A stretch of 64,000 bases of DNA from Rossellomorea sp. y25. GTDB taxonomy: Bacteria > Bacillota > Bacilli > Bacillales > Bacillaceae_B. Below are positions 458 to 50,700 of the stretch, piece after piece. The position numbers and the translations under genes were made by a program. The notes under the pieces are model-generated. The model saw only the letters and a program-made list of their open reading frames with translations, did not search any database and was not told the DNA's origin. Location: assembly GCF_038049935.1 (NCBI RefSeq), contig NZ_CP145886.1, forward strand, positions 2,612,501 through 2,676,500, given 5' to 3'. The stretch's first letter is position 1; every line of letters starts with the position of its first letter.

Positions 458-1963
458 TCACTTACCAGCACCTGACGTTTTTTTCTTTTTCATTTTCATT
501 TCTTTTTGGAATGAAAGAATTAATCCATATGTCATGACAAATAAGATAATGCCTAATGGTAAGGCTGTGATGATGGTGGCGGCTTGCAATCCGCTGATGC
601 CGCCAGTCCCCATCAAGATTGCCGCAATGGCAGCTAGTACGATCCCCCAGCTGAACTTCACAAAAAATGGAGGGTTCAAACTTCCATTAGACGTTTGCAT
701 CCCCAGTACAAATGTTGCGGAGTCGGCGGACGTCACAAAGAAAGTAATGATCAAGATTAGGGAAATAATCGATAGCACACCACTTAGAGGCATTTGATCA
801 TACACATAGAATAGTGCCGTCTCCAAACTTTGACCCGCTACATCTACACCTTGAACAAAGTCGTAATATAAACCTGTTCCACCGAATACACCAAACCATA
901 GAGAACATACGATTGTAGGCACAATGATGACGGCGATTATGAACTCCCGCACAGTCCTTCCTTTTGACACCCTCGCAATGAAAGTTCCCACGAACGGTGT
1001 CCATGAGATCCACCATGCCCAATAAAAAATCGTCCAATCCTTCACCCATTGATTATTCTCCACATTAAAGGGTGAAAAGCGTAACCCCATACTAGGCAGA
1101 TTTTGAACGTAGCTCCCAAAAGTGGTCAAAAACAATTCCAGGACAAATTGCGTAGGACCTGCGATGAGAAAGACAATGAATAACAAGACCGCCAATACCA
1201 TATTGGCATTGCTCAAATATTTAATTCCTTTTGATAAACCAGAAGCAGCAGAAGTAATAAATAGCACCGTTGCTACTCCCATGATGATCAACTGGACTTT
1301 AAAGTCAATCGGGGTTCCCATTAGGTAATTGAGTCCACTGTTAATTTGTTGTGCACCAATCCCAAGTGAAATCGCCACACCGAAAATCGTGGCAAACACA
1401 GCGACAATATCAACAAAATACCCTATGGGACCTTTCACTCTATCTCCAATGACAGGATATAACGTGGCACTCATAAGTCCTGGCATGTCCTTCCTGAATT
1501 TATAATAGGCAAGGGCCAATGCTACGACCGCATAAATGGCCCAGGCATGGAATCCCCAATGAAGATATGTATAGCGTAATCCGATTTTAGCGGATTCAAT
1601 GGTCCCACCTTCCCCATATGGTGGCGTGGAATAATGAGAAACTGGTTCCGAGACCCCATAAAAAAGCAATCCGATTCCCATTCCTGCACTAAAGAGCATA
1701 GCAAACCATGTCAATGTGGAATATTCTGGCCTGTCAGTGTCCCTCCCTAATCGAATCTTTCCATATTTACTAAATGCAAAGAAGATCGCGATGAGGAAAA
1801 AGAATGAAGCTGAAAATTGATAAAACCAGCCAAATTTGTCTAGAAGAACTCCTTGAGTATTGGTCATGATATCAATCAATGCCTGAGGAAAAATAACCCC
1901 CCAAGCCACAAAAATGATGCCGATTGTAATCGCAATCCAAAACATTGGTGTGAAATTTTTCAA
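458..1963 (-). CDS. BCCT-family glycine betaine/choline transporter (OpuD-like)
   Basis: This 501-residue membrane protein has about 12 hydrophobic segments and is the usual length for the betaine-choline-carnitine transporter family. Family signatures seen are the GMGIGLLFYGVSEP block near residue 95 and the Trp-rich block WAWWISWTPFVGTFIARVSKG near residue 315, which in this family forms the substrate site and the TM8 region. The start is TTG, with an AAGGGGGAAG ribosome site 5 nt upstream. The gene is monocistronic and ends in a strong hairpin. Its likely role is sodium-coupled uptake of an osmoprotectant; the sequence does not separate betaine from choline or carnitine. Confidence 0.9.
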   Translation of the reverse strand: MKNFTPMFWIAITIGIIFVAWGVIFPQALIDIMTNTQGVLLDKFGWFYQFSASFFFLIAIFFAFSKYGKIRLGRDTDRPEYSTLTWFAMLFSAGMGIGLLFYGVSEPVSHYSTPPYGEGGTIESAKIGLRYTYLHWGFHAWAIYAVVALALAYYKFRKDMPGLMSATLYPVIGDRVKGPIGYFVDIVAVFATIFGVAISLGIGAQQINSGLNYLMGTPIDFKVQLIIMGVATVLFITSAASGLSKGIKYLSNANMVLAVLLFIVFLIAGPTQFVLELFLTTFGSYVQNLPSMGLRFSPFNVENNQWVKDWTIFYWAWWISWTPFVGTFIARVSKGRTVREFIIAVIIVPTIVCSLWFGVFGGTGLYYDFVQGVDVAGQSLETALFYVYDQMPLSGVLSIISLILIITFFVTSADSATFVLGMQTSNGSLNPPFFVKFSWGIVLAAIAAILMGTGGISGLQAATIITALPLGIILFVMTYGLILSFQKEMKMKKKKTSGAGK

Positions 1964-2931: not shown

Positions 2932-2967
2932 AAAAAAACAGAGTACGTCAGCTGACGTACTCTGTTT
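2932..2967 (-). terminator. Terminator of the cold-shock gene
   Basis: A 32-nt perfect palindrome (2936-2967) is followed on the minus strand by seven T residues. It lies 18 nt past the csp stop codon. Confidence 0.85.
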
Positions 2968-2985
2968 GGAGTTTTTTCAATTGAA

Positions 2986-3183
2986 TTACTTTTGAACGTT
3001 AGCTGCTTGTGGTCCACGAGCACCTTCAACGATTTCAAATGTAACGTCTTGACCTTCTTCTAATGATTTGTATCCTTCACCTTGGATAGCAGAGAAGTGA
3101 ACGAAAACATCGTCTTGACCTTCAACTTCGATGAAACCGAAACCTTTTTCAGCGTTAAACCATTTAACTTTACCTTGTAACAT
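2986..3183 (-). CDS. cspB: Cold-shock protein (CspB/CspD type)
   Basis: The 65-residue protein aligns along its whole length with B. subtilis CspB. The RNP1 motif KGFGFIEV (residues 13-20) and the RNP2 motif VFVHF (26-30) are intact, and the protein ends GPQAANVQK. It is a single OB-fold that binds single-stranded RNA and DNA and keeps mRNA unfolded, especially after cold shock. The start is ATG with an AGGAGGT ribosome site. The upstream spacer is long and AT-rich, as in csp genes with structured leaders. The paralogue letter (B or D) is a judgement from similarity. Confidence 0.93.
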
Positions 3184-3369
3184 AAAACAAGTACCTCCTA
3201 GTGCAGTTGCACATAAAAATATTTATATTCCTGCTCTGATTAAGATTCAAGACGAATGTTCTTCAATCATGCATATTAACCGAACAAAAATAACTATCTT
3301 TACTATAACAGAATCTCATGCAAAACTCAAGAATTTGAATGGGTCTTTTTGTAAAATGCGAACAAGGAT

Positions 3370-12547: not shown

Positions 12548-12860
12548 ATAAAAAACCCCTCGTCCTTAGATATCGATCGACATCTAAGGACGAGGGGCTG
12601 AACTCGTGGTACCACCTTAGTTTATAGCTTGCTCACACAAGTCTATCTCAGCAAGTACGGAGCATAAAAAAGCTCTTATACCGTGACATGGATAACGGAT
12701 GCCCACTCCCGTCCTACCCTACACCAAAACGGTTCGAGTAGAATGCTCCGAGACCATTTTCCATAACGAGTTACCCTGCTTCTTTTCAGCTACCGAAGCT
12801 CTCTGATAAAGGACTCATCTATGGACTCTTCTCATCAACGCAAGTTAGATTTGTTTATAT
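12548..12860 (-). promoter_or_regulatory. T-box leader with Met (AUG) specifier
   Basis: On the minus strand the AGAGAGC stem I element is followed by GGAAAATGGTCTCGGAG, in which AUG (12755-12757) stands at the specifier position, matching the trp T-boxes nearby. The antiterminator sequence AAGGTGGTACCACG (12606-12619) follows. The terminator is a perfect 16-bp stem (12556-12571 with 12582-12597) and a T run. Uncharged tRNA-Met should favour read-through into the synthetase gene. Confidence 0.92.
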
Positions 12861-21946: not shown

Positions 21947-22215
21947 TCCCCTATGAACAGAAAGATCTGTTCATAGAGGACGATGCTGACCGCGGTGCCA
22001 CCTCTAGTTGGGATACTTTGATGTATCCCCTCTTGCTTCAAGTACAGGGAATGAATAACCCGATACTCTATCCATTTAACGGTGGAATTCCGTACGATCC
22101 TACTTCCATTCAGATCATCACTCATAAGTCCATTCCAGACAAGCTATCATGCCAAGGTCTCACCATCCTCAGCTCTCTGTCATGCATCACTTGAATGTAC
22201 TCCTCTTACTCAACG
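21947..22215 (-). promoter_or_regulatory. Trp T-box leader 2 (gene-proximal)
   Basis: On the minus strand AGAGAGCTGAGGATGGTGAG (stem I), GGAATGGACTTATGAG with UGG at 22130-22132 in the specifier position, and AGGTGGCACCGCG (about 21990-22003) appear in order. A terminator hairpin (about 21952-21981) and T run follow, 40 nt before trpE. The specifier reads tryptophan. Confidence 0.93.
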
Positions 22216-22235
22216 ATTTATCATTATTCAGTTAT

Positions 22236-22510
22236 AAAAAAAGGGCATCTCGATCCATTTACATCATGTAAAGGACGAGATACCCGTGGTGCCACCTTTG
22301 TTGACTGCCTGAACAGTCCACTTTATCGTATCGAAGCGGTTTGCTTTAATACGCGTCTTTTATAACGATAAGACATTCGCCAAAGCCTACTCCCTGAAGT
22401 TTCGGTTTGGAGGCTCAGAAGTCCATTCCCAAAGATCGTTCACACTGGTTCTCACCAACCACCAGCTCTCTTAAGTGTCGATCAGAGGTACTCCTCTTCG
22501 TCAAAGCCAT
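22236..22510 (-). promoter_or_regulatory. Trp T-box leader 1 (promoter-proximal)
   Basis: On the minus strand AGAGAGCTGGTGGTTGGTGAG (stem I; one base of this may belong to the flank), GGGAATGGACTTCTGAG with UGG at 22423-22425, and AAAGGTGGCACCACGG are followed by a terminator stem and seven T residues. It has every element of a complete T-box, so the operon must pass two tandem tRNA-Trp sensors before trpE is reached. Confidence 0.93.
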
Positions 22511-22604
22511 TCGCTCATTTAATTAATTGTTTATTATACTAATAGCATTCCTTCACAATGTCAACTATTTATATGAAATAATATTCCGATATGCATCAAA
22601 AGGT

Positions 22605-39427: not shown

Positions 39428-39570
39428 CCGGTCCTTCTCCCATCCAGACTATCACTGTCGGCTTTGGAATTTCACCAAATCCACCGTCTAATTTTCATTA
39501 GCCGGGTCACGGACTAAGAGCATGCGCTCATCACCGCCGGTAGGGAATTTCACCCTGCCCCGAAGGAAAC
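39428..39570 (-). promoter_or_regulatory. FMN riboswitch (RFN element)
   Basis: On the minus strand the conserved blocks are CTTCGGGGCAGGGTGAAATT, CCCTACCGGCGGT, AGTCCGTGACCCG, GGTGAAATTCC and GTCTGGATGGGAGAAGGA, in the correct order. Binding of FMN should close the aptamer and favour the downstream terminator, lowering rib expression. Confidence 0.97.
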
Positions 39571-39760
39571 CTATTCGATTATCATTATTCTATCATAGTT
39601 TCCTAAATGAAATCATGTAAGGAGCTCTAAAAACTTATTTTTGTATTAATTTTTTGAATATATATTAGAAACATCTCTCTATTTCTGCCTGCGAGCACTA
39701 AGAAAATGCTACAAAAATAAAAAAGAATGCCTCTATTAAATAGAAGCATCTCTACATTTA

Positions 39761-49825: not shown

Positions 49826-49911
49826 AAATTTGTTAAAAATTTTCATCAAAATTTAGCATTTTACCTATTTCCTTTTTGAGATATTTCGTATATGATACAA
49901 ATGGATAATAT

Positions 49912-50074
49912 ATTTCCGGTTACAAAGACGCGATCAATTCTTATATTGAGCGACTGTAATGAAGGGAAGGCAAAAGGTGCGCCACCAGTTTCTTGACTGG
50001 TCTTAGTGGGTTCGATTCCCACCCCGAAATTTTTTAGTTACCATTTAAAAATTTCGAGGGTGGGATCGTACGCA
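49912..50074 (+). ncRNA. Unassigned structured leader RNA with tRNA-like acceptor/T-arm
   Basis: Pairs seen by eye: a closing helix (49912-49919 with 50023-50030, one C-C mismatch); a P2 hairpin (49920-49924 with 49955-49959, then 49931-49938 with 49945-49952); a P3 hairpin (49984-49989 with 49996-50001); and a 5-bp arm with a perfect T-loop TTCGATT (50006-50010 with 50018-50022). The T-arm abuts the closing helix exactly as in tRNA. A competing 18-bp stem (50017-50034 with 50047-50065, one bulged A) would use the same 3' strands. This is the layout of a switch. I cannot match it to a known riboswitch class. Confidence 0.65.
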
Positions 50075-50102
50075 AGTAGACTGCCCTCAAGGAGGGTCTA
50101 CT
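50075..50102 (+). promoter_or_regulatory. Shine-Dalgarno-sequestering hairpin before the GNAT gene
   Basis: AGTAGA (50075-50080) pairs with TCTACT (50097-50102), and CCCTC (50084-50088) with GAGGG (50092-50096), leaving a 3-nt loop. The ribosome site GGAGGG is buried, and the ATG follows directly. The CCCTC strand can instead pair with GAGGG at 50056-50060 of the upstream RNA, which would free the ribosome site. Confidence 0.7.
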
Positions 50103-50660
50103 ATGATCAAGAAACGTGAATTACATGAGTGTCATGAGCTCTATGACCTGATGGTGCACCCGGATGTCTTCCCTTTCGTGCGTCAAAAAGCTCATTCCTA
50201 TGAGGAGCTTCTCTTCTTAACGAAACAAACGATTGAAGCTGAGGAGCGTGGAGAACTCATTTCCCGTACGATTTTGGACGAATGGGGCAACCCGATCGGA
50301 ACGATAAACTTATTTGATATTCAAGAAAATGCTGGGTTCCTGGGAACCTGGATTGGCAAACCCTATCATGGAAAAGGATACAATCAACCAGCCAAAGATG
50401 CATTCTTCGCTGAACTTTTCTTCGAATTAGGAATGGAAACCATATTCATGAGAATCCGCAAAGTGAATACCCGCTCCCAAAAAGCAGCAGAAAAACTTCC
50501 ATATGTACTAAAAGCGAACGAAACAAGAAAATCTCTTTACGAACAATTAAATGCTCAAGAAGAGGTATATGATTTATATGAAATCCCCAAAGACTTATAC
50601 ACACTTTATTTATATCAGCTTCAACCTTCCCAAGAAGAAGATCAAGCTTTGGAAGCTTAG
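50103..50660 (+). CDS. GNAT acetyltransferase (RimJ/RimL-like)
   Basis: This is a 185-residue protein. The GNAT core is IGTINLFDIQENAGFLGTWI, then GKPYHGKGYNQPAKDAFFAELF (acetyl-CoA loop) and RIRKVNTRSQKAAEKL, as in the Acetyltransf_3 group that acetylates ribosomal proteins or small molecules. The start is ATG, 7 nt after GGAGG. The ribosome site lies in a hairpin and the gene follows a structured leader, so translation is probably controlled. It has its own terminator. The substrate is unknown. Confidence 0.87.
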   Translation: MIKKRELHECHELYDLMVHPDVFPFVRQKAHSYEELLFLTKQTIEAEERGELISRTILDEWGNPIGTINLFDIQENAGFLGTWIGKPYHGKGYNQPAKDAFFAELFFELGMETIFMRIRKVNTRSQKAAEKLPYVLKANETRKSLYEQLNAQEEVYDLYEIPKDLYTLYLYQLQPSQEEDQALEA

Positions 50661-50664
50661 GATA

Positions 50665-50700
50665 AAAACCGATTTCCCTATGAGGAAATCGGTTTTTTGT
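50665..50700 (+). terminator. Terminator of the GNAT gene
   Basis: A 13-bp stem AAAACCGATTTCC / GGAAATCGGTTTT is followed by TTG and further T residues. Confidence 0.85.

Follow-up and report, generated by a model that had tools for sequence, protein, structure and literature searches.

Introduction

The yjdF riboswitch was the only tRNA-like riboswitch class that we found in the searched literature. According to the available part of PMC9142559, it adopts a tRNA-like fold, its off state pairs the T-arm strand with the Shine-Dalgarno (SD) sequence, and activating ligands favour the tRNA-like fold, so it is a translational ON switch. The same part mentions some acetyltransferases under yjdF control and reports that authentic tRNAs before an SD raise translation 2 to 6.3-fold in vitro. 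Genes other than yjdF behind this riboswitch are very rare according to the available part of a 2016 paper (PMC4793209). In the crystal structure, as described in the available part of PMC10987639, the helices are placed as in tRNA and a direct L2b-L4 contact was not observed; the available parts of PMC9142559 and PMC10987639 disagree on whether the D- and T-loop equivalents of yjdF touch.

Here we describe a leader of about 200 nt that lies between a TATGAT element (49891-49896) and an ATG at 50103 in Rossellomorea sp. y25. Rossellomorea is a genus of Bacillaceae, and the genome of this isolate has 4.63 Mb; the window is the whole stretch of 64,000 nt that was analysed. The leader is a real, conserved cis-acting RNA that precedes a GNAT acetyltransferase gene, and it is apparently an undescribed RNA switch. 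We consider it probable that it acts as a translational ON switch with a tRNA-mimic sensor.

Like yjdF, as presented in the available part of PMC9142559, the element is a tRNA-like cloverleaf in a 5′ leader that tolerates a short acceptor, has a free anticodon arm and carries a conserved GG in the D-loop equivalent. In both, a tRNA-like four-way junction governs access to the SD, here as judged by covariation and folding. The differences are as follows. The yjdF model (RF01764, gathering score 45 bits) has no match in the genome of our isolate, nor at the leader at E values up to 10. The A-rich J1/2 belongs to yjdF, whereas the linker here has two or three A (AA in the window). The T-loop here is canonical, whereas TTCGATT was not seen by eye in yjdF copies L214-L222. 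The downstream gene is GNAT and not yjdF in the 120 of 120 pattern-scan loci listed, and one genome (G074) carries both a yjdF riboswitch and a GNAT leader. Our analysis indicates that the element works like yjdF, its closest known counterpart, but belongs to another family.

The leader also resembles tRNAOther of B. cereus, a predicted Bacilli pseudo-tRNA with a role outside translation. As described in PMC3399842, tRNAOther differs in carrying an anticodon for Trp and in lying beside a pathogenicity island, and 'acetyltransferase' is absent from the part of that paper's text examined. T-box leaders (RF00230) share tRNA-related control of Bacilli leaders and occur elsewhere in the window. However, a T-box binds tRNA while the GNAT leader imitates it, and neither the gathering nor the relaxed Rfam search gave a T-box match at the leader. 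No earlier description was found in Rfam 15 or the open-access papers searched, nor in the available parts of PMC11109978, PMC4793209, PMC7266159 and PMC2864571.

Results

Architecture of the leader

The features of the leader and its gene, all on the plus strand, are:

49891..49896, plus strand: putative −10 promoter element TATGAT, probable, enriched upstream of the cloverleaf
49964..50025, plus strand: tRNA-like cloverleaf of 62 nt, the proposed aptamer, from conservation and covariation
49964-49966 with 50023-50025, plus strand: putative acceptor of 3 bp, GGG / CCC, pairs invariant
49967-49968, plus strand: linker AA
49969..49983, plus strand: D-arm GGC / GCC with loop AAAAGGTGC containing GG (GG of the loop unchanged in all 77 rows; one of three pairs with a two-sided change)
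49985..50000, plus strand: anticodon-like arm CCAGT / ACTGG, whose loop varies freely in sequence and length (four of five pairs two-sided)
50006..50022, plus strand: T-arm GTGGG / CCCAC with T-loop TTCGATT (T-loop invariant in 77 of 77; two of five pairs two-sided)
50018..50064, plus strand: switch hairpin, part of the minimum free energy (MFE) fold, with covariation
50026-50034 with 50047-50055, plus strand: upper stem of the switch hairpin, GAAATTTTT / AAAAATTTC (eight of nine pairs two-sided)
50018-50025 with 50056-50064, plus strand: lower stem, CCCACCCC / GAGGGTGGG, A50057 bulged, reusing the T-arm and acceptor strand
50056..50063, plus strand: anti-anti-SD strand GAGGGTGG, which pairs with 50081-50088 when the tRNA-like fold is forced and covaries with this partner
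50081..50088, plus strand: anti-SD strand CTGCCCTC, covarying with GAGGGTGG
50091..50096, plus strand: Shine-Dalgarno sequence GGAGGG (unpaired with a mean probability of 0.33 in free folds and 0.62 once the cloverleaf is forced, 131 leaders)
50103..50660, plus strand: GNAT acetyltransferase, 185 aa, Pfam Acetyltransf_3 above the Pfam cut-off, GNAT fold
50664..50697, plus strand: terminator-like hairpin 3′ of the gene, consensus match only

The common plan of the leaders is GGG-AA-GGC AAAUGGUGC GCC-A-CCAGN..NCUGG-UUCUA-GUGGG UUCGAUU CCCAC-CCC in the 5′ part, followed by GAAAUUUUU..AAAAAUUUC, GAGGGUGG, CUGCCCUC, GGAGGG and AUG in the 3′ part. The arms stand in the order found in tRNA (D-arm, anticodon-like arm, variable loop, T-arm) on an acceptor of 3 bp. 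Cross-family conservation begins at the GGG, and the conserved part covers about 49963-50064 (query 59-160). The D-loop GG and the T-loop UUCGAUU were invariant in all 77 rows of leaders found by the covariance model, which were hand-picked from the available loci. A further 226 distinct leaders were collected by a pattern that requires the T-loop, so their 226 of 226 T-loop count is circular. The linker consists of two or three A in the 77 rows; it is AA in 222 and AAA in 4 of the 226, the search pattern itself having demanded a run of A. Across the 226 leaders the anticodon-like arm varies from 9 to 26 nt, and we therefore do not read it as an anticodon.

The first-pass annotation had placed a 5-bp arm with a perfect T-loop TTCGATT here, and we found it at 50006-50022 just so. 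Its claim of tRNA-like parts is supported, but it had not named the D-arm and the anticodon-like arm, and the core proved smaller and more tRNA-like: conservation marks out a domain of about 62 nt (49964-50025) instead of about 118 nt. The 8-nt closing helix that had been proposed is not conserved. Its upstream strand TTTCCGG occurs in 3 of the 226 distinct leaders; seven of its eight pairs can form in 16 leaders against 11.9 expected from shuffles, and all eight in none against 0.5.

The Rfam search at gathering score returned no family at the leader position, in keeping with the first-pass annotation, which had matched the RNA to no known class. In the relaxed search the best sensible match was the tRNA model at 23.1 bits (cut-off 29); a plant or animal microRNA model stood slightly above it, on a plain hairpin. 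The window's copy differs from a tRNA gene as modelled by RF00005 in its score, in a 3-bp instead of a 7-bp acceptor and in having no fixed anticodon loop. Among 20 relatives, only L174 passes the tRNA model (30.8 bits against the 29-bit cut-off). ARAGORN made no tRNA call in the window, and it reported one of the 10 leader loci run (L051) as tRNA-???. Comparison with the 26 tRNAs of the same genome put His-GUG nearest by alignment (score 56; shuffles mean 40.5, maximum 54), but the covariance model put a Gly-UCC locus first, and no parent tRNA is claimed.

The leader region folded better than every one of 200 dinucleotide shuffles (z −4.38). TATGAT was present in 129 of 244 upstream regions. 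Over the 160 nt that precede the cloverleaf it occurred 140 times (33 in shuffles), for the most part 30-90 nt upstream of the cloverleaf. From its position in the window the transcript would be expected to start at about 49903. Generic promoter scanning and sigma-70 scoring of the upstream regions gave nothing above shuffles, and TATGAT alone stood out; in the window the generic sigma-70 scan pointed not to TATGAT but to another site, at 49919-49947. TATAAT was depleted in the same 160 nt (28 against 93 in shuffles). The terminator-like hairpin at 50664-50697 suggests a one-gene transcript.

Covariation

In a MAFFT alignment of 77 sequences, which was not fitted to the structure, 7 of the 16 cloverleaf pairs showed two-sided changes, and none of 500 shuffles scored as high. 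These pairs fall in the anticodon-like arm (4 of 5), the T-arm (2 of 5) and the D-arm (1 of 3); the changes in the T-arm pairs occur in three sequences and one, that in the D-arm in one. In this alignment 98.1% of the cloverleaf cells pair, and sliding by 1-3 columns leaves at most 54.5%. The acceptor pairs are invariant (the two rows that depart from them are misaligned), so covariation cannot test acceptor pairing.

In the model-aligned set of 100 sequences, 15 of 25 pairs were two-sided, again with none of 500 shuffles as high, and the upper switch hairpin contributed 8 of its 9 pairs. This alignment leans to the covariance model. Because its sequences were picked from loci in which a leader had already been recognised, their 100 of 100 cannot be taken as a frequency. 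Comparison of sequences thus shows the D-, anticodon- and T-stems and the upper hairpin. The first-pass annotation had proposed compensating changes in both the T-arm and the closing helix as a test; the former has them, and the latter has none because it is not conserved.

Distribution and gene linkage

A DNA search detected the leader in 54 of the 61 related genomes, with 18 of 25 other families of the order among them, and in the first 50 loci it stood just before the orthologous GNAT gene on the same strand in all 50. With the covariance model, 249 of 299 genomes of the order gave a match at E ≤ 1e-3, and 225 of these genomes held strong leader matches (E ≤ 3.1e-12). The remaining 24 of the 249, weak matches with E > 1e-5, were counted as tRNA genes. 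Among the weak matches of all searches, those inspected held tRNA genes at the match, by ARAGORN (L099, L100, L102, L104, L344-L347 and L350) or by eye (L101, L103, L105 and L106); the count extends this to matches outside the inspected set (L120-L127, L129-L132, L348, L349, L351, L352 and others).

GNAT (E ≤ 1e-25) was present in 229 of the same 299 genomes. Both leader and gene occurred in 225, GNAT only in 4, leader only in 0 and neither in 70; the genomes are related by descent, so a Fisher value on this 2×2 table is no fair probability. A closer search of the four GNAT-only genomes (G063, G105, G261 and G182) found no leader. In a class-wide sample of 299 genomes, strong matches outside the order occurred only in family f49 (4 genomes; L095-L098). 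A gene-blind pattern scan of a named genome collection gave at least 120 leaders, with a GNAT start 55-145 nt downstream in 120 of the 120 listed; the pattern was built on consensus letters and favours well-kept copies. The earlier claim of an unassigned cis-regulatory leader tied to this GNAT gene is supported by these searches, and the comparison of genomes shows the linkage beyond the window.

Some loci depart from the rule. G106 has three leaders, two of them before GNATs, while the orphan L109 (about 1501-1599, minus strand) is intact and lacks a GNAT gene downstream. In G214 a further GNAT copy (L133), 79% identical to the window's GNAT, stands without a leader. In G137 (L144, L151) the GNAT behind the leader is split over two frames, by sequencing error or because the gene is broken. 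No copies were found in viral contigs (exact pattern) or in phages. In Cytobacillus spongiae, a leader 97.3% identical lies at 647294-647441 of NZ_CP089998.1, a 690-kb record filed as a plasmid, with no annotated feature in that region.

Upstream and neighbouring genes at 138 eligible loci gave no obvious pathway link. The recurrent upstream families were an amidohydrolase and two further families, which we take to be TIGR01777-like and RecX-like proteins.

Switch strands and folding

The long competing stem noted earlier was found at about 50015-50034 with 50047-50067. So was the hairpin that buries the SD, in which CCCTC at 50084-50088 pairs with GAGGG at 50092-50096 within GGAGGG, and a second GAGGG is indeed present at 50056-50060. 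CCCACCCC has two alternative uses, in the T-arm and acceptor or as a basal strand of the downstream hairpin, where it pairs with GAGGGTGG, and CTGCCCTC has two alternative partners, GAGGGTGG or the SD.

The pairing of GAGGGTGG with CTGCCCTC is shown by its covariation. Thirty-one leaders carry a strand other than GAGGGTGG; these strands pair with the downstream strand of their own leader at a mean score of 18.0, against 15.9 with the strands of standard leaders (sd 0.36, highest of 2000 draws 17.1); 9 of 141 leaders, whose strands or start codon the script could not place, were left out. For example, AGGGGTGG pairs with CTGCCCCT before the SD GGAGGGG in L154-L157, and TGGGGCAG pairs with CTGCCCCA in L187. 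The position of A50057, bulged in the OFF hairpin, holds an A that faces T in 112 of 121 cases; three of the six other letters keep a standard pair, and at this position 12 of 127 leaders are unpaired with the partner strand. L045 (G057) has a long insertion in the switch hairpin, yet its GGGTGGCG pairs with the downstream CGCTACCC.

Folding was compared in 131 leaders, free and with the cloverleaf forced, tertiary contacts not being counted (10 of 141 were left out, their strands or start codon being unplaceable). Forcing the cloverleaf raised SD accessibility in 120 of the 131, by more than 0.3 in 52; it lowered it by more than 0.3 in none, and 11 showed no gain. The anti-anti-SD helix was present in 108 of the 131 forced folds, and the OFF pairing of the same strand in 123 of the 131 free folds. 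The free fold is the more stable by a mean of 7.9 kcal/mol (range 0 to 21.6), and its MFE structure retains the T-stem in only 12 leaders. This suggests that the ON state needs kinetic or ligand help. The switch logic first proposed, in which folding of the aptamer leaves GAGGG free to take CCCTC and open the SD, is thus backed by covariation and folding.

Family f15, with the leader in 7 of 26 genomes, keeps the cloverleaf. The long hairpin is missing from all seven of its leaders, where the T-arm/acceptor strand finds a downstream partner of 4 bp at best (5 in L357). An 11-bp pairing of the T-arm strand TCCTAGTGGGT with ACCCGCTAGGA is possible in L117, and a 10-bp one with CCCACTGGGA in L118, in both cases running into the SD. 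L353, L355 and L356 offer the T-arm strand 6-7 bp at best, located at the SD; in L354 and L357 its best match lies inside the gene, away from the SD. The mean T-arm/SD score of f15 was 17.1 against 13.4 in 500 shuffles (sd 0.86, maximum 17); without L117 and L118 it was 13.6, like the shuffles, so the signal rests on those two. Of these two, only L117 reaches the full cloverleaf unaided, and both are no more stable than shuffles (z −0.39 and 0.09, respectively). A riboswitch-like design would be expected to keep its sensor when the platform changes, with the cloverleaf and a closed SD again mutually exclusive; this is clear in only two of the seven f15 leaders.

The acetyltransferase

The closest named relative of the GNAT protein is from Rossellomorea (97% identical). 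Its structure model is confident (pLDDT 91.9) and matches FdhC, RimL, SpeG, PseH, MccE and AAC(6'), so that no single substrate is indicated; identity to MccE and RimL in these structure alignments is 14-15%. The best PDB sequence-profile match was MccE (E 3.6e-8), with other GNATs and spermidine acetyltransferases close behind. A model of the GNAT part of an IleRS fusion matched 22 of the 31 GNAT alignment members (best 7.1e-9; the window's protein 5.3e-4), and fewer matched the models of PseH (6) and spermidine acetyltransferase (5). MccE and RimL acetylate a broad range of aminoacyl adenylates according to the available part of PMC3817062, where the RimL data are given as unpublished. Kinship with these enzymes offers hints only of aminoacyl-nucleotides or tRNA-charging stress.

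Discussion

As judged from the sequence, the leader joins a conserved putative aptamer to an alternative pairing with an expression platform, the general mark of a riboswitch. Transcription would yield the cloverleaf first; its D- and T-loops are suited to forming an elbow, and its acceptor has just three pairs. If the cloverleaf were stabilised, CCCACCCC would be held in the T-arm and acceptor, GAGGGTGG would be free to take CTGCCCTC, and with these two paired GGAGGG would lie open to ribosomes (ON). If it were not, CCCACCCC would move into the long hairpin with GAGGGTGG, and the released CTGCCCTC would pair with GGAGGG and shut translation of the acetyltransferase (OFF). The acceptor pairing, the elbow contact, the co-transcriptional order and the direction of switching are the inferred parts of this scheme. 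By analogy with yjdF, which senses azaaromatics, our leading guess is that the signal is a small molecule linked to the charging of tRNA, and that the GNAT protein may detoxify or process it. In its most specific form, which is speculative and which we hold to be rather unlikely as a whole, this would be a second class of riboswitches with a tRNA fold, closer to tRNA than yjdF is, that reads a tRNA-charging-stress compound (an aminoacyl-nucleotide or a synthetase-directed antibiotic) and turns on a MccE/RimL-type acetyltransferase neutralising that compound.

A serious rival to the ON-switch reading, although on the doubtful side, is that the cloverleaf serves as the landing site of a tRNA-binding protein whose binding sets the switch: the GNAT protein itself (autoregulation), a tRNA-modifying enzyme, or a chaperone acting on the T-loop. 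The canonical T-loop UUCGAUU and the D-loop GG are features read by tRNA enzymes. The single target gene in the 120 of 120 scan loci listed and the match of the IleRS-fusion GNAT part to 22 of 31 members (best 7.1e-9) point the same way. However, a stabilised cloverleaf opens the SD, and a bound GNAT would then activate itself, which is unusual for feedback; moreover, its fold is of the generic RimL/SpeG type.

Readings that dispense with a bound signal or partner fare worse. The effect of authentic tRNAs before an SD in the available part of PMC9142559 lends some credit to a tRNA shape that is a signal-free, fixed translation enhancer or mRNA 5′ stabiliser, but this would leave the covarying hairpin and anti-SD strands unexplained, and we think it improbable. 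Folds that answer temperature, ions or kinetics instead of a ligand would fit the separation of the two states by stem exchange, the A+U-rich upper hairpin and an energy gap of at most 5 kcal/mol in 34 of 131 leaders. Such a switch is hardly probable either, as the D- and T-loop letters are conserved far beyond the needs of stem stability and the gap, at 0 to 21.6 kcal/mol, is not tuned. The tRNA-model scores of the window and L174 (23.1 and 30.8 bits) and the tRNA-??? call for L051 might suggest that the element is a pseudo-tRNA or the remnant of a tRNA gene and regulates nothing; against the 3-bp acceptor, the lack of a fixed anticodon, the constant place before the same gene across families and the compensated changes downstream, this is very improbable. 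Next to yjdF, the leader is a second case, with a canonical T-loop, a conserved GG in the D-loop and a strict link to one gene, in which one can test how a tRNA fold comes to act as a gene switch. It also opens a way to learn what is done by an acetyltransferase present in about three quarters of the order's sampled genomes.

Other regulatory RNAs were seen in the window, all on the minus strand: a T-box leader at 12583-12847, an FMN riboswitch at 39428-39571 and a cspA thermoregulator at 2935-3272. Two tandem T-box leaders, also on the minus strand, lie at 21973-22222 and 22268-22513 ahead of three ORFs, which we take from their sequences to be trpE, trpG and trpD.
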